This document shows, piece after piece, positions 25,429-32,771 of a stretch of 64,000 bases of DNA; the stretch's first letter is position 1, and every line of letters begins with the position of its first letter. Source of the DNA: Zobellia nedashkovskayae (GTDB taxonomy: Bacteria > Bacteroidota > Bacteroidia > Flavobacteriales > Flavobacteriaceae); the NCBI RefSeq assembly GCF_015330125.1, contig NZ_JADDXR010000002.1, positions 744,001 to 808,000 on the forward strand, read 5' to 3'. Under the pieces are notes generated by a model. The model saw nothing but the letters and a program-made list of their open reading frames with translations, was not told the origin of the DNA and ran no database searches. The position numbers and the translations under genes are program-made.

Positions 25429-26004
25429 CTAATACTGTTTTCTTAAGCGGCTTAAAGAAACATTGGTAATACCCAGATAGGAAGCGATCATGGAATGGGG
25501 AATTTTATTTTCTAACATTGAAAAGTCTTTACGGAACTGCTCCAATCTTTCCTTAGCCGACCAAGAGGCCATTCGGATTTCTTTACTGACCTTATTCAAA
25601 AGTTCTTGTCGCATAACCGTATTTCCGAAATCACGGATCTCTAAATTGTCAATCATTAATGATTCAAAGTCTTTGGCATCTATTTTGGCAAAGTTGCAAT
25701 CGGTTATGGTTTCGCAATACAATAATGATTTTCCATTGTCGGTTCGTGTGACGAAAGGGGGTAGAACGGTATTGTCTTCAAAGAAAGATAGTGTGATTTC
25801 CTCTCCTTCGGAGTTTAGTAAAAAAATACGGGCAATTCCTTTTAAAAGTATATATTCAGAATCATCTGTTTGATTTGGCTTAAGCAAAATACTGTCTTTC
25901 TTCGATTGTTGTTCAATACATATATCTGCTAATTGTTGGCGGGCATTTTGGGATACATGTGAAGTGTACGTATCGATAGATTTATCCAATTTTGATACTT
26001 CCAT
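25429..26004 (-). CDS. Crp/Fnr family transcriptional regulator
   Basis: The 191-residue protein has an N-terminal cyclic-nucleotide-binding-like beta barrel (about 20-120) and a C-terminal winged helix with IPHSMIASYLGITNVSLSRLRKQ, typical of the Bacteroidota Crp-like group. The phosphate-binding cassette lacks the Arg-Ser/Thr pair that binds cAMP in E. coli CRP, and there are no clustered Cys for an iron-sulfur centre. The signal is therefore unknown. It is on the same strand as, and upstream of, the four-helix membrane protein. A strong terminator lies just upstream. Confidence 0.88.
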   Translation of the reverse strand: MEVSKLDKSIDTYTSHVSQNARQQLADICIEQQSKKDSILLKPNQTDDSEYILLKGIARIFLLNSEGEEITLSFFEDNTVLPPFVTRTDNGKSLLYCETITDCNFAKIDAKDFESLMIDNLEIRDFGNTVMRQELLNKVSKEIRMASWSAKERLEQFRKDFSMLENKIPHSMIASYLGITNVSLSRLRKQY

Positions 26005-26078: not shown

Positions 26079-26163
26079 AATTAATATTCAAGTTTCTGTA
26101 CTGCGCCCATTGTGCTCTTTTGCTGTTGTTAAAGGTTGAGAAGTACTGTCCTGTTTTTGAAGT
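26077..26163 (-). pseudogene. 5'-truncated copy of the basic micropeptide gene
   Basis: On the minus strand these 29 codons encode a sequence nearly the same as residues 11-35 of the micropeptides at 29785 and 29943: TSKTGQYFS, then NSKRAQWAQYRN, then stop. Relative to the 29785 copy, five codons differ only at the synonymous third position, so it was under protein-level selection. The first ten or so residues and the ATG are missing; the frame is open upstream for about 24 codons but contains no Met, Val or Leu start that I can defend. A terminator directly follows. It may be a decayed gene or use an unusual start. Confidence 0.6.
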
Positions 26164-26288: not shown

Positions 26289-27383
26289 TTATGCCAAAGA
26301 AACCGTTACCAAATCATACGCATCGATTTTACCTTTGAGCTGAGGTTTCCCTAAAGTCTTAACGGAATACTCGTCCCCGAATTCTAATCGAAGAATTAGG
26401 TTTTTGGAAACCAGTAGGTCAACACCATATGCATTGCATAGTCCTTGTATTCTTGCGGTGGTATTCAACACATCCCCGGTAAAGAATATCTCTTTTTTCA
26501 AGGCGCCGATTTCTCCGGTGGTTACTTCCCCAAAGTGCAAACCTGCTTTAAAATCTGGGAAAACCTTATATTTTTCCAAATAGTTTTCCTTCCTTTTTAA
26601 TAGATCCGATTTCATATCAAAAAAACAATGAATACAGTTATTCTTATTTATGCCGTTTTTGATTTTCCAAGAGATAACAATTTCATCCCCGATATATTGA
26701 TAGACCTCGCCGCGGTTCTTGACAATAGCATCCGATAGGTCAAAATAATACGCCTTTAGCAATTCAAAATATTGGATATGCCCCAATTGTTCCGCAATAA
26801 AAGTGGAATTTTTCATGTCGGCAAACATAAAGATTCGGGTCTCGGCAACGGGTTTGTGGTACTTTCCGGTAAAGAAATTGAGCAAGATGTTCTGCCCAAG
26901 ATTTTCGCTGATTTCTGCATATAGTAATGATGTCAGCAACTGAAACGAAAGTTGTATCATCGTGCTAGCATTGGTAATGCTGAAAAAAAAAGTCCCATAT
27001 CTATTCCAAACACGTTGATTCAGTATCGAAGTTTTTAGCTCCATACTTGCCGCTATTGGAAAAGTGATTAAAATTACCACAAAGAAAAATGCTGCATAAA
27101 TGAGAAATTTTGAAATAATTTTAACCAAAAAACGCTGCTTTTCGAACAAGCGGTTCAGATATACCAATTCGATAAAACCAACTAGAATACCAATAAAAGT
27201 GATTCCTGTAAGGGCAAAAGTCAGAACACCGGCATCAAGTTTAATAGCACTTTCCAGGTTATTCGCTTTGCCTCCAAGCGCGGCATGCTCTACCCAAAGA
27301 AATAAAGCCCCAGAGACTAGCCAAATGATTCCGAAGGGAATAATTCTACCTATATTTCTTTTAGTTATGGCGGATAGTTTCAT
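26289..27383 (-). CDS. Membrane-anchored class III nucleotidyl cyclase
   Basis: Residues 1-165 hold four hydrophobic segments (about 12-30, 52-75, 88-112 and 140-157). The class III cyclase homology domain covers about 180-364 and faces the cytoplasm. The metal-binding Asp189 (FADMKNST) and Asp233 (YIGDEIVISW) are present, as are the transition-state pair Asn307/Arg311 in VLNTTARIQ, so the enzyme should be active. The two purine-specifying positions are atypical: Gln229 where adenylate cyclases have Lys, and Phe300 where they have Asp. The product, cAMP or cGMP, is therefore uncertain. It follows the AraC/TPR regulator with a 112-bp gap on the same strand. Confidence 0.85.
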   Translation of the reverse strand: MKLSAITKRNIGRIIPFGIIWLVSGALFLWVEHAALGGKANNLESAIKLDAGVLTFALTGITFIGILVGFIELVYLNRLFEKQRFLVKIISKFLIYAAFFFVVILITFPIAASMELKTSILNQRVWNRYGTFFFSITNASTMIQLSFQLLTSLLYAEISENLGQNILLNFFTGKYHKPVAETRIFMFADMKNSTFIAEQLGHIQYFELLKAYYFDLSDAIVKNRGEVYQYIGDEIVISWKIKNGINKNNCIHCFFDMKSDLLKRKENYLEKYKVFPDFKAGLHFGEVTTGEIGALKKEIFFTGDVLNTTARIQGLCNAYGVDLLVSKNLILRLEFGDEYSVKTLGKPQLKGKIDAYDLVTVSLA

Positions 27384-27495: not shown

Positions 27496-29547
27496 TTAAA
27501 GCAACCCCTTCTTTTCTAATGAAGCTCTCAACATCGCCTGATTTTCCCAGAATTGGTCTTTTATCTTTTGCATAATGGCATCAAATTCGGGATGATTTTT
27601 TAGCGGTTGAATCAGTGGTTCATCTTCAATTAACAAAAACCAATACATATAATTCTCTGTTTTGGAAAATATTCTAAGCTGTTCGATAGCCTCATTAACC
27701 TTCCCCTCATAAGCGTATTTCCAAACTAGATTTACACTTCTATAGGTTGATTGGTCCCCTTCGCAGTATTCTGAGAAATCGTTAAAAAGTTTCTCAGCTT
27801 CCGAGTCCAACCCCATTTTTTTATATACCGAGGCAATTTTGACGTTTTCTTGTAGATAAATATCCAGTCCATTTGCTTCCCTTGCTTCAACAAACTTTTT
27901 AAAATAGGTATAGGCACTGTCATAATTTTCCTCGATATAATACAACTTCCCTATGTCCTGTAAAAGGTCAAGCCGAGTGGTATCCTTGTTCCATTCTTTA
28001 ACCACCAAATTTCTAGTTCGCTCAACATTACCATCCTTAGCGAACAGGATAAATGCTTTTAAATGCGGCGCATAATAATTTTCAGCATTATAATCGAGCG
28101 ACATGTTGATGTATTTTAACGCCTCATCAACAAATCCCGATGACACCAGGGCATTACTCAGCTGTAAATAGGTATAGCTCTGGGTAACAGAATCACTTGC
28201 AACGTTAAGCTGAACCCCTTTCAATGCATACTCAAGGTATTTATTGGTATCGGGAATCATGCTAGAATAAAACAACGCAAGTATTTGCACGGCCAGGGAT
28301 GAATTGGGATTATACTCCAGTGCCTTTTCAAGATGTGGCAATGCCAACTGGTACTCCTTTGTTCGTATATAGTAAAAAGCCTTGGCGACCAAACTTTCGG
28401 CAGATTTTGAATCGTAAAGCAAGGCTTTATCCGCATAGCTATTAATCTTTTCGGTGTATTGTTTCTCGATTTGAGACATTTCGAGCAAATAGTATGAAAT
28501 AGCGATGTTGGCATAAGCCAAGGCAAACTGCGAATCTTGTTCTATTGCCTTTTCAAATAATGAGATGGCCTTTTCCAAGCCTTCCGGAGTCTGAGAATAA
28601 TAAGGGTCTAATGCTTGGAGATAATAATCATAGGCCACCAGATTTTCGGTAGGTCTTTTTTCAATTTGCTCCAGTTCGGCCGGTGTCACGACCGCCTCAA
28701 TGGCATCGGCAATTTTCTTCGCAACATCGTTTTGTAACGCAAAGACGTCCGACACTTCCTGATTGTACTGTTCTACCCAAATTGGTGTATCCGATGAAGC
28801 TTCAATTAATTGAACATTGAGCAATACCTGATTCCCAACACGTTGACCACTACCTTCTACCAAATAGTTCACATTAAGCTCTTTAGCTATCTCTGGGATA
28901 CCCTTATCCGTTTTTCTATACTTTTCTACAGAAGTTCTGCTGATTACTCGCAAGTCTTCGATTTTCTGAAGGTTGTTCAATGCGGATTCCATCAATCCGT
29001 TCACAAAATACAGATTGGTGGAATCGGCGCTTTCGTTTTTAAAGGGCAACACGGCAATGGATTTTTCAATTTCTACAGTATTTACGGCATCCTTTTTATT
29101 AAAAAACAAGATGGAAGCAACAAGTAATGCTACAACTGATGTAGCAATAACAGGCCACCTGTAACGATTTAAAAAGTTGGTTCGAACCTTTTCCGATTCT
29201 TCCACTACTGCACCTTTTCCAACTTCTCCAGGGGGATACCCATATAGTTCCCGAAAACATTTGATGAAGTATGAGGTGCTTCCAAAGCCCACTTGATACG
29301 AAATTTCGGAGACCGTTGAGGAACCTTCCTTAAGTAATTCCATCGCTTCTTTAAGTCGGACTTGACGAATGAATTGGCTTGCGGAAAGTTTTGTTTGTTT
29401 CTTGATTTTTCGAAGCAAGTTGGACCGGCTCATATTCATCGCATCTGCCAATTCAGAAACCCCAAATTGCTCGTTACCCAAATTCTCCAGAATCAGGGCT
29501 TCCGCTTGTTCAATAAAGGTCGATGTGTTGGCCGATGTGTTTGACAT
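27496..29547 (-). CDS. Membrane-anchored AraC-type regulator with TolB-like and TPR domains
   Basis: The 683-residue protein starts with an AraC/XylS double helix-turn-helix (about residues 15-107; LKEAMELLKEG, ISYQVGFGSTSYFIKCFRE). One transmembrane segment follows at about 131-149. The outer part begins with a FlgO/TolB-like domain (IAVLPFKNES at about 164-173, to about 270). It is completed by at least six tetratricopeptide repeats (about 300-640), one with YAYEGKVNEAIEQLR. The layout is a one-component membrane regulator with a cytoplasmic DNA-binding domain and a periplasmic sensor. TolB-like/TPR modules are often fused to class III cyclases; here the cyclase is the next gene. It is read away from the micropeptide array. 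Confidence 0.88.
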   Translation of the reverse strand: MSNTSANTSTFIEQAEALILENLGNEQFGVSELADAMNMSRSNLLRKIKKQTKLSASQFIRQVRLKEAMELLKEGSSTVSEISYQVGFGSTSYFIKCFRELYGYPPGEVGKGAVVEESEKVRTNFLNRYRWPVIATSVVALLVASILFFNKKDAVNTVEIEKSIAVLPFKNESADSTNLYFVNGLMESALNNLQKIEDLRVISRTSVEKYRKTDKGIPEIAKELNVNYLVEGSGQRVGNQVLLNVQLIEASSDTPIWVEQYNQEVSDVFALQNDVAKKIADAIEAVVTPAELEQIEKRPTENLVAYDYYLQALDPYYSQTPEGLEKAISLFEKAIEQDSQFALAYANIAISYYLLEMSQIEKQYTEKINSYADKALLYDSKSAESLVAKAFYYIRTKEYQLALPHLEKALEYNPNSSLAVQILALFYSSMIPDTNKYLEYALKGVQLNVASDSVTQSYTYLQLSNALVSSGFVDEALKYINMSLDYNAENYYAPHLKAFILFAKDGNVERTRNLVVKEWNKDTTRLDLLQDIGKLYYIEENYDSAYTYFKKFVEAREANGLDIYLQENVKIASVYKKMGLDSEAEKLFNDFSEYCEGDQSTYRSVNLVWKYAYEGKVNEAIEQLRIFSKTENYMYWFLLIEDEPLIQPLKNHPEFDAIMQKIKDQFWENQAMLRASLEKKGLL

Positions 29548-29716
29548 ATTGTTTTTTACTAGCTCTAAATTAGGGAAAATTTAAAGAATTACACCTTATC
29601 TCGAAGGCTGCCTATTTAACGGAAAAGTCATCTTTTGCGTCATAATTTACATCCCTGCGTCATAATTTTTATGGCCTCCTAAAACTTTACATAGTTCTCC
29701 GCATAGCTCATACGGG

Positions 29717-29742
29717 TTGCTTCAAGTTCGATAGCATCTTTG
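29717..29742 (+). promoter_or_regulatory. Candidate flavobacterial promoter for the micropeptide array
   Basis: A TTG at 29717-29719 and CATCTTTG at 29735-29742 resemble the Bacteroidota -33 (TTG) and -7 (TAnnTTTG) elements, with seven of eight bases in the latter. The spacing of 15 bp is a little short. The position, about 40 bp before the first micropeptide ATG, is right. Confidence 0.35.
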
Positions 29743-29784
29743 TACCAACAAAAATCATAACAAAACAATTTAAAATTATTAATC

Positions 29785-29898
29785 ATGAAAACATCAATTA
29801 GAAGAACAGCAACAGAATCAAAAACAGGACAGTACTTCTCACCCTTAAGTAACAGCAAAAGGGCGCAGTGGGCACAATACAGAAACTTTAGCAGATAA
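29785..29898 (+). CDS. Basic micropeptide 1, 37 aa
   Basis: A complete 37-codon frame from ATG to TAA encodes a very basic peptide (eight Lys/Arg, one Glu). It contains SIRRTATES, KTGQYFS, then NSKRAQWAQYRNFSR. There is no hydrophobic stretch, so it is expected to stay in the cytoplasm. The next frame, 44 bp downstream, encodes a close paralogue. Between the two, seven codons differ silently and five change the amino acid, mostly conservatively (Lys/Arg, Thr/Ala, Ser/Asn). This is the mark of a coding sequence under selection. The function is unknown; nucleic-acid binding, a modified peptide precursor or a regulatory peptide are possibilities. Confidence 0.7.
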   Translation: MKTSIRRTATESKTGQYFSPLSNSKRAQWAQYRNFSR

Positions 29899-29942
29899 TC
29901 TGAATCAAAAAAAAGTCAATAATCTATAAAAACAAATAAATC

Positions 29943-30056
29943 ATGAAAGCATCAATTAGAAGAACAGCAACAGAATCAAGAACAGGACAGTACTTCTCAT
30001 TTCTCAGCAACAGCAAGAGAACCCAATGGGCACAGTACAGAAACTTTAACCGCTAA
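29943..30056 (+). CDS. Basic micropeptide 2, 37 aa
   Basis: A second complete 37-codon frame, with the same length and arrangement as micropeptide 1. It keeps SIRRTATES, RTGQYFS, NSKRTQWAQYRNF and a C-terminal Arg. It differs at Thr3Ala, Lys13Arg, Pro20Phe, Ala27Thr and Ser36Asn. The upstream bases (AAATAAATC before ATG) also resemble those before copy 1, consistent with a tandem duplication that includes the translation start region. It is likely in one transcript with copies 1 and 3. No function is assigned. Confidence 0.7.
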   Translation: MKASIRRTATESRTGQYFSFLSNSKRTQWAQYRNFNR

Positions 30057-30094
30057 TCACGGTCAATAAAAAAACATCAAAAAACAACACAGTC

Positions 30095-30217
30095 ATGAGA
30101 ACAATCATCAATTATTCGCCAACGGAATCTAGAAGGCTCACTTTCCTTACCCACTTCAAGGACAGCAAGAGAATCCGTTGGTCAGAATCCAGACACTACC
30201 TTCATTTAGAACCCTAG
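30095..30217 (+). CDS. Basic micropeptide 3, divergent paralogue, 40 aa
   Basis: A third frame in the array, 40 codons long and 38 bp after copy 2. Aligned from the Met without gaps, it keeps only anchor positions: Thr-Glu-Ser at 10-12, a basic residue at 13, Ser-Lys-Arg at 24-26, Trp29 and Arg33. The rest has diverged, and the C-terminus is extended to LHLEP. The shared register of the anchors argues that it is an old paralogue rather than a chance frame. It is less basic than copies 1 and 2. Role unknown. Confidence 0.5.
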   Translation: MRTIINYSPTESRRLTFLTHFKDSKRIRWSESRHYLHLEP

Positions 30218-30303
30218 TTCGACGGTTTGGAAAAAGGTGTAGACCCTAATCAAAGTCTATCCCTTACTAAAACAAAATTATAACAACAATTAAAAATGTA
30301 ATT

Positions 30304-30960
30304 ATGAAATCAAAGATTCACGAATACCTATTAAAATTAAATAACAAAGGCATTAGTAAAACAATCAAAAAACAAGTTATGTTAAAAATGGCGTGTATTG
30401 CCTTTACTCTAGTATCTGCAATGGCATTTGCACAAAACAATTCTAATACCCAAAACAACTTTAACCGAGACGGTTTTATGTTAGAATTTGGTCTAGGTGG
30501 TGGTATAATTAGTATAGAAGATAGTGCTGGAAATCAAAGTTTTGATGATACCCAAGGCGGTGGCACTTTTCCTGAATTAAAGTTAGGCTATATGTTAAAT
30601 AACCGATTAGCCATTACCGTTTCTGCACCTGGAATGATTTATACGCTTAATGATAACGACAGACACTTTGGAGGCATTATACCTTCTGTTCAGTACTGGG
30701 TAAAAGACCGGTGGTGGATACATGGTGGTGCCGGTTTAGCCATCGATTCGCCTGCGTTATATGATATTAAAGACAATGTAAATGACGACTGGAATACAGG
30801 GATAGCAGCTATGGTGAGTACCGGTTATGAAGTGTACAGAAAAAACAAGTTTGCCATAAACATTCAATCTAAATTACTCCTTGGTGGTGTAAAGCTGAAT
30901 AATAACATTGACAGAGAGGTGGTGCAATTTAGTTTGGGAGTTGGCTTTAGCTGGTTTTAA
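30304..30960 (+). CDS. Outer-membrane beta-barrel-like protein with an N-terminal leader
   Basis: The 218-residue protein starts with a hydrophilic leader (MKSKIHEYLLKLNNKG, then SKT) of about 25 residues before a conventional signal peptide (CIAFTLVSAMAFAQ, cleavage near residue 44). The mature part is Gly/aromatic rich with alternating strands and ends in GFSWF, as outer-membrane barrels do. The same leader opens the next gene, whose product is otherwise unrelated. Translation could instead begin at an internal Met (residue 26 or 29), which would make a normal signal peptide. It follows the micropeptide array on the same strand. Function unknown. Confidence 0.7.
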   Translation: MKSKIHEYLLKLNNKGISKTIKKQVMLKMACIAFTLVSAMAFAQNNSNTQNNFNRDGFMLEFGLGGGIISIEDSAGNQSFDDTQGGGTFPELKLGYMLNNRLAITVSAPGMIYTLNDNDRHFGGIIPSVQYWVKDRWWIHGGAGLAIDSPALYDIKDNVNDDWNTGIAAMVSTGYEVYRKNKFAINIQSKLLLGGVKLNNNIDREVVQFSLGVGFSWF

Positions 30961-31003: not shown

Positions 31004-31654
31004 ATGAAATCAAAGATTCACGAATACCTAGTAAAAATGAATAACAAAGTAATGAGCAAAACAGCTAGAATTAATTCATTAAGAATAGTAGCACATATGT
31101 CACTAGCTCTCCTTTTACTAATCACTGCTTGCGGTCAGTCTGGTAATAAGGTTGAACAACAGGCAAACAGCAATACAGAAGTCAAGGCCGTAGTTGATGC
31201 ACCAGAAATGGACATTCAAGCAGCAATACTATCGGATAATCTAGAAGCTATTAAAAAACACATCAACGTCGGTACCGACCTTAATAAAAAAGATGCTATG
31301 ACCGGTTCAACTCCGTTAATCACTGCAGCAAGCTTTGGGAAAATCAAGATTACCCAAGAGCTTATCAATGCGGGTGTGGATTTAACCGTCAAGAATAATG
31401 ATGGGGCCACAGCCTTGCATACGGCAGCATTCTTTGGTAGGGTCGAGATTGTTCAAATGTTGATTGATGCCAAGGTTGATAAATCTGCAAGAAACAATTT
31501 TGGTGCGACGGCCAGAGAATCCGTAATGGTACCTTTCGCAGATATGAAACCCATTTATGAAATGTTACAAAAACAGTTACAGCCAATGGGCTTGCAAATT
31601 GATTTGAACGAAATCGAAAAAACGCGTCCTGTCATTGCCATGATGTTACAGTAA
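31004..31654 (+). CDS. Ankyrin-repeat lipoprotein with the same N-terminal leader
   Basis: The 216-residue protein begins with MKSKIHEYLVKMNNK, nearly the leader of the preceding gene. It then has a lipoprotein signal with lipobox LITAC at about residues 39-43. The mature part has about three ankyrin repeats: AAILSDNLEAIKKHINVG, GSTPLITAASFGKIKI and GATALHTAAFFGRVEIV. Ankyrin repeats mediate protein binding; the lipid anchor places it at the periplasmic face of a membrane or on the surface. It is followed after 22 bp by an acyltransferase gene on the same strand. Confidence 0.8.
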   Translation: MKSKIHEYLVKMNNKVMSKTARINSLRIVAHMSLALLLLITACGQSGNKVEQQANSNTEVKAVVDAPEMDIQAAILSDNLEAIKKHINVGTDLNKKDAMTGSTPLITAASFGKIKITQELINAGVDLTVKNNDGATALHTAAFFGRVEIVQMLIDAKVDKSARNNFGATARESVMVPFADMKPIYEMLQKQLQPMGLQIDLNEIEKTRPVIAMMLQ

Positions 31655-31676: not shown

Positions 31677-32771
31677 ATGAAAACAGAACGAAGACACGAT
31701 ATTGATTGGCTCCGGGTTATTGCGATAGGTTTGCTATTGATTTATCACATATCCATCATATTCCAACCTTGGGCTATGTTCATTGGCTTTATCAGAAGTG
31801 ATGAATTTTTAGAGGGTCTATGGAAACCAATGACCATGCTAAATGTTTGGCGAATTCCATTGTTGTTTTATGTGTCCGGTATGGGGCTCTATTTTGCCAT
31901 GCGCAAAAGAAACTGGAAGCAATTGCTCTTGGAGCGGGCAAAGCGGATTCTTATACCCTTTGCCTTTGGCTTTGTGGCAATAACCACGCTTCATATGTTT
32001 ATTTTTCAGAAATATTACGATATGCCCTTGGGCTATTTCCCGCATGCAGGGCATTTATGGTTCTTAGGTAATATTTTTGCATATGTATTATTGTTACTGC
32101 CCCTGTTTTTCTATCTGAAAAGGAACGAGAAAGGTAGGTTTAAAAAAGGCTTGTCCGCATTTATGGGAAATCCTGTTGGCCCTTTGTTGATTTCCTTGTT
32201 TTTTGTCGTAGAGGCCGTAGCGGTAAAACCTCAGTTATTTTCCATGTATGCGCAGACTTGGCATGGCTTTTTCCTTGGACTGCTTGCCTTCTTTTTTGGT
32301 TTTCTCTTTGTGTATAGTGGTAAAACCTTTTGGCAAACCGTGCTAAGGTGGCGATGGTTATATATTGGCTTGGCCGCTGTTTTGTTCGGTATCCGATACT
32401 TTATGTACGCTACGGAAGCGCCTGGCTATCTTACGGCCATCGAATCAAATTGCTGGATTTTTGGGGTTTTTGGTCTTGGCTACAAATATTTGAACAGGCC
32501 GAGTAAAACACTAAGCTATTTGAGTCAAGCAGCTTATCCTGCTTATATCATTCACATGTTTGTCTTATATGCAGGAGCACTGCTCATATTGCCATTGGAG
32601 ATACCTATCCTATTTAAATTTATTGGTATTGTAGCTTTTACGGGTGTAGGTTGTTTTATCATTTATGAGTTTGTTCTTAAAAGGATAAGATTCTTAAGGC
32701 CTTTATTCGGATTGAAATGGACCTACAAAAAAATCGAAAAGGGTAAAACTTTGACCTCGAACCAAAACTGA
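31677..32771 (+). CDS. Acyltransferase family 3 membrane protein
   Basis: The 364-residue protein has about ten hydrophobic segments. It opens with RRHDIDWLRVIAIGLLLIYH, the signature of acyltransferase-3 proteins, in which the Asp/His pair near the first helix is essential. Members O-acylate exopolysaccharides, peptidoglycan, lipopolysaccharide or small molecules, and include OpgC, the glucan succinyltransferase. A polar aromatic-rich loop (FPHAGHLWFLGN) resembles the OpgC-like subgroup. The acceptor cannot be predicted from the neighbours. It probably belongs to the same transcript as the ankyrin lipoprotein. Confidence 0.85.
   Translation: MKTERRHDIDWLRVIAIGLLLIYHISIIFQPWAMFIGFIRSDEFLEGLWKPMTMLNVWRIPLLFYVSGMGLYFAMRKRNWKQLLLERAKRILIPFAFGFVAITTLHMFIFQKYYDMPLGYFPHAGHLWFLGNIFAYVLLLLPLFFYLKRNEKGRFKKGLSAFMGNPVGPLLISLFFVVEAVAVKPQLFSMYAQTWHGFFLGLLAFFFGFLFVYSGKTFWQTVLRWRWLYIGLAAVLFGIRYFMYATEAPGYLTAIESNCWIFGVFGLGYKYLNRPSKTLSYLSQAAYPAYIIHMFVLYAGALLILPLEIPILFKFIGIVAFTGVGCFIIYEFVLKRIRFLRPLFGLKWTYKKIEKGKTLTSNQN

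Follow-up and report, generated by a model that had tools for sequence, protein, structure and literature searches.

The 64-kb window analysed here carries an array of three small peptide genes, which lies between the control region of a divergent regulator gene and a downstream operon. The features of this locus are as follows.

26086..26163, minus strand: orphan fragment (C-terminal part of a type A frame); no in-frame ATG found; hairpin and T tract behind it
27496..29547, minus strand: AraC-type regulator with TPR repeats, 683 aa, divergent; Pfam HTH_18 and TPR
29636..29672, plus strand: TGCGTCATAATTT occurring twice, 20 bp apart; putative operator for the divergent AraC/TPR regulator
29735..29742, plus strand: CATCTTTG, a putative -7 box (cf. 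TAnnTTTG), near which the conserved control block ends
29785..29898, plus strand: type A peptide gene, copy 1, 37 aa; ATG start, TAA stop
29943..30056, plus strand: type A peptide gene, copy 2, 37 aa; ATG start, TAA stop
30095..30217, plus strand: type B peptide gene, 40 aa; final gene in the array, as in all mixed arrays (68/68)
30234..30265, plus strand: terminator-like hairpin with a loop common to many arrays, here without a T tract
30304..30960, plus strand: first gene past the array, 218 aa; weak outer-membrane beta-barrel match (PF13505, E = 1.7e-4, below cut-off)
31004..31654, plus strand: ankyrin-repeat protein, 216 aa; directly behind the control region in three genomes of the same genus
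31677..32771, plus strand: acyltransferase (PF01757); a recurrent neighbour in the same conserved neighbourhood

The original prediction described two complete 37-aa frames of equal length, separated by 44 bp. Both lie exactly where it placed them and run from ATG to TAA, and our recount of the differences between them agrees at seven silent and five replacement codons (T3A, K13R, P20F, A27T and S36N). In a search of the whole 4.94-Mb genome, copy 2 and copy 1 matched at E = 2.4e-16; there were five matches at E ≤ 10, none of them convincing outside the neighbourhood of the array. A third array member, at 30095-30217, had gone unmentioned; it is diverged, with 30% identity to copy 1. The orphan fragment is 73% identical over 26 residues and is flanked on its own strand by a guanylate-cyclase-domain gene and a CRP-like cNMP-binding gene (25429-26004 and 26289-27383, both minus strand). 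For 9 of 63 arrays, a relative of the guanylate-cyclase-domain gene (cluster C14) stands next to the array or close by. Within the window, the hairpin sequence occurs only behind the array and behind the orphan. None of eight other genomes of the genus contains the peptides.

A profile built from the three window frames found A/B relatives in 61 of the 397 Flavobacteriaceae genomes sampled, representing 41 of 237 genera. Most relatives stand in tandem arrays across the family, in agreement with the proposal of a tandem family. A first locus set, consisting of the window and 60 regions picked among the matches listed, gave 149 matches, of which 146 have an in-frame ATG and 115 of those are exactly 37 aa long; within arrays, the gap from one stop to the next start ranges from 15 to 285 nt and is mostly 35-60 nt. 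Adding 72 named loci (from Maribacter, Croceitalea, Pricia, Arenibacter, Ulvibacterium and others) raised the count to 365 matches and 305 distinct frames. An in-frame ATG is kept in 359 of the 365, so the frames are not disrupted as often as chance would have it; among the remaining six, L155 does hold an ATG-started frame that a script artefact concealed, and L093 and L173 seem to be one place.

The reading that the protein is conserved rather than the DNA proved sound. Over 118 disjoint closest pairs of relatives, dN/dS was 0.132, with 305, 299 and 1008 differences at codon positions 1, 2 and 3; the other two reading frames of the same pairs gave 1.84 and 1.25. Judged by these codon statistics, the A/B peptides are translated and kept by purifying selection. 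The RNA of 29760-30060 folds no better than its shuffles (z = 0.11, one array), which speaks against an untranslated structured RNA, and a search of the window against Rfam brought only two tRNAs to gathering scores. Composition also matches what had been noted for the two copies: among 139 distinct relatives, Lys and Arg together average 7.9 residues per peptide and Asp and Glu 1.9, 131 have exactly one Trp, and no hydrophobic stretch was seen by eye in the relatives' sequences. The peptides are conserved along their whole length, most strongly at M, T-E-S, F-S, S-K-R, W and R. AlphaFold predicts an open structure with two short helices; it is a poor model (mean pLDDT 60.8) in which only the C-terminal helix (25-35) is moderately confident.

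The peptides had been said to match no family, and this held in every collection searched. No Pfam or NCBIfam profile exceeded its cut-off for A/B, nor did any for types C, D and E described below (best Pfam E 0.073); PHROG returned one match only, at E 0.33, PADLOC returned none, and PDB matches were at chance level. None of 86 protein-database matches to the profile carries a functional name. A literature search of incomplete coverage found no title on such peptides or on ECF-driven small peptides in flavobacteria. We regard the operon as one of a new kind, and the individual peptides as new small-protein families. Similar lengths and a W-K-G-T run in type E led us to consider kinship with the smallest ribosomal proteins; it was dropped, with no Pfam or NCBIfam support. 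A viral origin was likewise set aside after a type A query gave no confirmed relative in IMG/VR.

The order of genes within arrays is fixed. Among 116 arrays scored with A and B profiles, with identical copies counted once, A precedes B in 68 of 68 mixed arrays. Some A/B operons also hold a type C peptide of about 40 aa (R-P-K-I-Y-F...G-F-G-W-N-T-D), placed before or between the A copies (for example L078:8205-8321 and L037:8138-8263). The surroundings vary: the neighbour beyond the array lies on the opposite strand in 36 of 63 cases, on the same strand in 26 and is absent in one, and the biggest cluster of neighbouring genes within 7 kb reaches only 15 of 63 arrays, so no immunity, export or modification gene is common to them. 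An ATCAA/ATAAA loop is common to 47 of 109 array hairpins, whose stems are variable; because the best hairpin of every tail was taken, the mere existence of one carries no evidential weight.

Upstream of the arrays, 44 of 62 have a conserved block composed of a 23-bp dyad and GTAAC-N16-CGTC, a layout like that of an ECF sigma factor promoter. From 90 sites, the promoter consensus reads AtAGTACCTTTTtaTaCATAGTACT-GTAACAAAA...CGTCT...TgTAA, with the dyad abutting the core. The pattern is missing upstream of the other 18 arrays, that of the window included. A strict form of the promoter occurs at 34 sites in 24 of 30 genomes (two of the 30, G058 and G060, being array-less); their spacing is uniform throughout, and each of the 34 is at most about 320 nt upstream of an array. 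The genome of the window has no site of this strict form. When one mismatch was allowed, the promoter was found in 216 of 397 genomes, many of them without A/B arrays, compared with about 70 of 397 (counted by eye) for a reversed control. In an order-level sample of 346 genomes, the exact promoter was present in 11; all 11 are among the 62 of this family, with none in the 284 outside it and none in the large genus g127 of that sample.

We then searched from the promoter rather than from the peptides, at 40 further exact sites chosen among the matches listed where no A/B array was known. These promoter-first loci revealed type D, a 28-aa peptide (M-R-T-L-N-N-N-Q-L-T...W-N-x-K-R-R-Y-R) in one to three copies, and type E, a 44-aa peptide ending W-K-G-x-K-R-Y-A-H, often after D copies. 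Wherever D and E share an array (25 of 25), E is the later of the two, and where the E profile gives no match the last frame is often one of 44 codons. Both types have the codon signature of selected proteins, with dN/dS of 0.189 for D (32 pairs) and 0.194 for E (only 4 pairs). Type E has 45 database matches (in Algibacter, Flaviramulus, Flavivirga and others); those with a name are called hypothetical, apart from two in Flavivirga that UniRef labels Transposase. Altogether, A/B, C, D or E peptides stand behind 55 of 64 distinct exact promoter sites. The nine others precede different basic micro-frames (four sites: L237, L247, L254, L256), a 187-188-aa protein (three: L233 twice, L264) and larger proteins that look by eye like outer-membrane receptors (two: L265, L268). 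The 187-188-aa protein under this dedicated promoter has an apparent signal sequence.

Type D occurs in 141 of 397 genomes; it coincides with A/B in 10, and the two together cover 192 of 397. The promoter, at one mismatch or fewer, is present in 169 of these 192 peptide genomes versus 47 of 205 peptide-less ones, a difference for which the Fisher P of 8e-42 is only indicative because the genomes are related; 23 peptide genomes are without even a one-mismatch match. The genome lists behind the overlap and co-occurrence counts were compiled by hand, and the genome of the window was scored positive although its one-mismatch sites lie away from the array. A single superfamily of A/B, D and E was considered and found no support: hhalign probabilities were 13.5, 2.2 and 5.6%, none significant, and the part aligned was the Trp-basic-aromatic C-terminus. 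With homology of the types unsupported, we claim for them only a common slot and a common C-terminal look. The operon at L228 might bridge the two systems: two 27-aa D-like frames stand there ahead of a 36-aa frame of A/B type.

The promoter core connects these operons to a particular sigma factor. The bare core TGTAACA-N15-CGTCT was found at 45 sites in 10 genomes versus 3 for a reversed control. One of two core sites in the genome of the window precedes an ECF sigma gene that scores 237 bits against NF058625 (cut-off 130) and is followed by the gene for a 149-aa partner without a Pfam match. A gene of this NF058625 type (PG0214/GFO_1088) exceeds the cut-off in 29 of 30 genomes chosen to include 10 with A/B, 10 with D and 10 with neither; it is nearly universal, array-less genomes included, and looser matches to the profile are other ECF factors, present in control genomes too. 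GTAAC-N16-CGTC lies 0-54 nt before the script-chosen start of all 29 NF058625 genes, and the 23-bp dyad is missing from the consensus of 27 of their promoters. The peptide operons (44 of 62 arrays) therefore share a core with 29 of 29 sigma genes but add the dyad to it, and the window array has no core. Given the shared core and the extra dyad, we take the peptide operons to belong to an autoregulated ECF regulon and to answer to a further, putative regulator as well; other ECF factors may read the same core.

Further core sites (30 of the 45, inspected by eye) precede genes for a TolC-like protein, ABC ATPases, an ankyrin protein and small exported proteins, which hints at envelope business for the genes concerned. 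Proteins of three kinds recur among the products of core-promoter genes, also by eye: small ankyrin, membrane-like (84-85 aa) and exported-looking (116-129 aa) (L282, L290, L272, L280, L285, L289). In published work, PG_0214 and PG_0215 rise about 10-fold in Porphyromonas gingivalis FLL361 under H2O2 (PMC10101095), PG_0214 is reported up in biofilm (PMC5378342), and a CGT-box ECF motif of Flavobacterium psychrophilum is induced at low nutrients (PMC9723704). This last motif, SM6, resembles the core in being an ECF-type motif located ahead of an ECF/anti-sigma pair and an ABC ATPase, and differs in that the available portion of the study describes no peptide operon (PMC9723704). As these papers concern other genera, the assignment of the peptide operons to stress is one that we infer.

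The window array is a special case: it is without the ECF-plus-dyad promoter and adjoins the divergent AraC/TPR regulator gene. The repeats in its control region, TGCG(T/C)CATAATTT-like, are conserved with variation in an alignment of 13 loci and in three array-less loci. Across the 13 aligned loci the candidate -7 box takes a C-A-(C/T)-C-T-T-T-G-like form, to be compared with the sigma-A consensus TAnnTTTG of the F. psychrophilum work (PMC9723704). In three genomes of the same genus, whose regulators are 61-62% identical, a recognisable control region leads straight into the ankyrin gene and the array is absent. The cassette would have been either inserted or, in these three relatives, lost, and since it occupies the same place in other genera, either history can account for the pattern. 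Among arrays whose hairpin fits one pattern, the longest T run is 2-3 in 10 of 10 hairpins of the window context; in 12 others it ranges from 3 to 9, with a median of 5.5. The hairpin is kept here and its T tract gone, which would be in keeping with a need for transcription to run on into the operon. The cassette of the window lineage is probably run by the AraC/TPR regulator.

We propose that an NF058625-type sigma factor and a putative regulator at the 23-bp dyad switch the operon on, with envelope, starvation or oxidative stress as the presumed trigger. Several A genes and one B gene would then yield two basic peptides in unequal amounts, both cytoplasmic and each largely unfolded by itself. 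Their binding partner would be anionic, with RNA or ribosomes the likeliest, and contact would be made by the conserved stretch S-K-R-x-x-W...R-(N/H)-(Y/F). In the window lineage, the cassette would operate within the AraC/TPR-flanked operon, probably answering to that regulator instead. Taken as a whole, sigma-induced cytoplasmic microproteins that bind an anionic partner are the best explanation we have, to which we give nearly, though not quite, an even chance. The regulatory part is well supported at the level of sequence. That the peptides are cytoplasmic and bind RNA or ribosomes is a guess, a little further from even, made because they are basic, have no export or membrane features visible by eye, carry one Trp and a basic-aromatic C-terminus, and have an open predicted structure.

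The strongest rival, though an unlikely one, is that the peptides are feedback regulators, which bind the sigma factor, its partner or the dyad protein and so tune the regulon. The core promoter common to operon and sigma gene would suit such a loop, as would a dyad that the consensus makes specific to peptide operons, and either DNA or a regulator would be a conceivable target for basic Trp peptides; but the sigma factor is also present in array-less genomes, the window array has left the promoter and yet been kept, and the unrelated sequences of the same slot would all need the same target. We consider it rather less likely again that the peptides are toxins, act as antimicrobials or are matured into a modified, secreted product. 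Small, cationic, tandem, diversified peptides of patchy distribution might suggest it, against which stand the absence by eye of any hydrophobic segment or leader and the PADLOC, PHROG and IMG/VR results above. The suggestion in the original prediction of a precursor of a modified product found no support, with no export leader seen and no neighbour family beyond the 15 of 63 arrays already mentioned. The same count, within 7 kb, means that no recurrent modification or export gene stands next door, and a RiPP precursor is unsupported on this ground. A type I toxin is likewise unsupported, the peptides not being hydrophobic and membrane-spanning by eye. The type I toxin genes ldr and ibs are tandem and encode hydrophobic peptides; the arrays resemble them in their tandem copies of tiny genes and differ in encoding basic peptides, with no hydrophobic stretch, in a fixed A-then-B order.

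It is improbable that the short upstream frames serve the gene behind them as attenuators or leaders. In the window, as in the 12 relatives aligned with it, the array does stand between control region and operon, and the terminator there has no T tract; across the family, however, only 26 of 63 arrays are followed by a gene on their own strand and neighbours differ, the peptide sequence is conserved end to end, and the control region, judged by its conservation, works without the array in three relatives. For the family, orientation and neighbours led us to reject this reading. More improbable still is a small regulatory RNA in which the frames are incidental. ECF regulons elsewhere include small RNAs, the F. 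psychrophilum study lists the Rfp11 RNA under an ECF-type promoter (PMC9723704), and the array hairpins often share a loop; the codon statistics of the A/B, D and E frames, the unremarkable folding of the one array tested and the lack of the exact promoter in the sample of genus g127 all count against it. A structured RNA was likewise rejected on codon statistics and folding. The E. coli sigma-E response uses sigma-dependent small RNAs, short transcripts that end at a hairpin; the arrays would be similar as short transcripts of a stress sigma factor with a terminal hairpin, but their conserved product is, by codon statistics, a protein.

Returning to microproteins that bind an anionic partner, a wider form of the proposal is possible and distinctly more tentative: that Flavobacteriaceae have a microprotein arm of a sigma-controlled stress response, in which an ECF-plus-dyad promoter drives operons that hold nothing but a tiny basic peptide in several copies and a second one in a single copy behind it, the unequal pair acting on RNA, ribosomes or another anionic target. 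Unrelated pairs (37 + 37-40 aa, 28 + 44 aa) would fill one slot, the architecture being selected more than the sequence, and the cassette could move to other promoters, as in the window. Bacteroidota are not known to have Hfq, so a peptide arm in place of the enterobacterial small RNAs would, if true, set their stress responses genuinely apart. A mostly unannotated gene class in 192 of 397 family genomes would then be tied to a specific sigma factor, and frames now called hypothetical would become a testable system. The approach of promoter first, peptide second, which found unrelated peptides in the same slot, might also serve for other micro-operons.

Past the window array, the outer-membrane and ankyrin genes open with the same coding start, MKSKIHEYL (30304-30330 and 31004-31030), as if duplicated.
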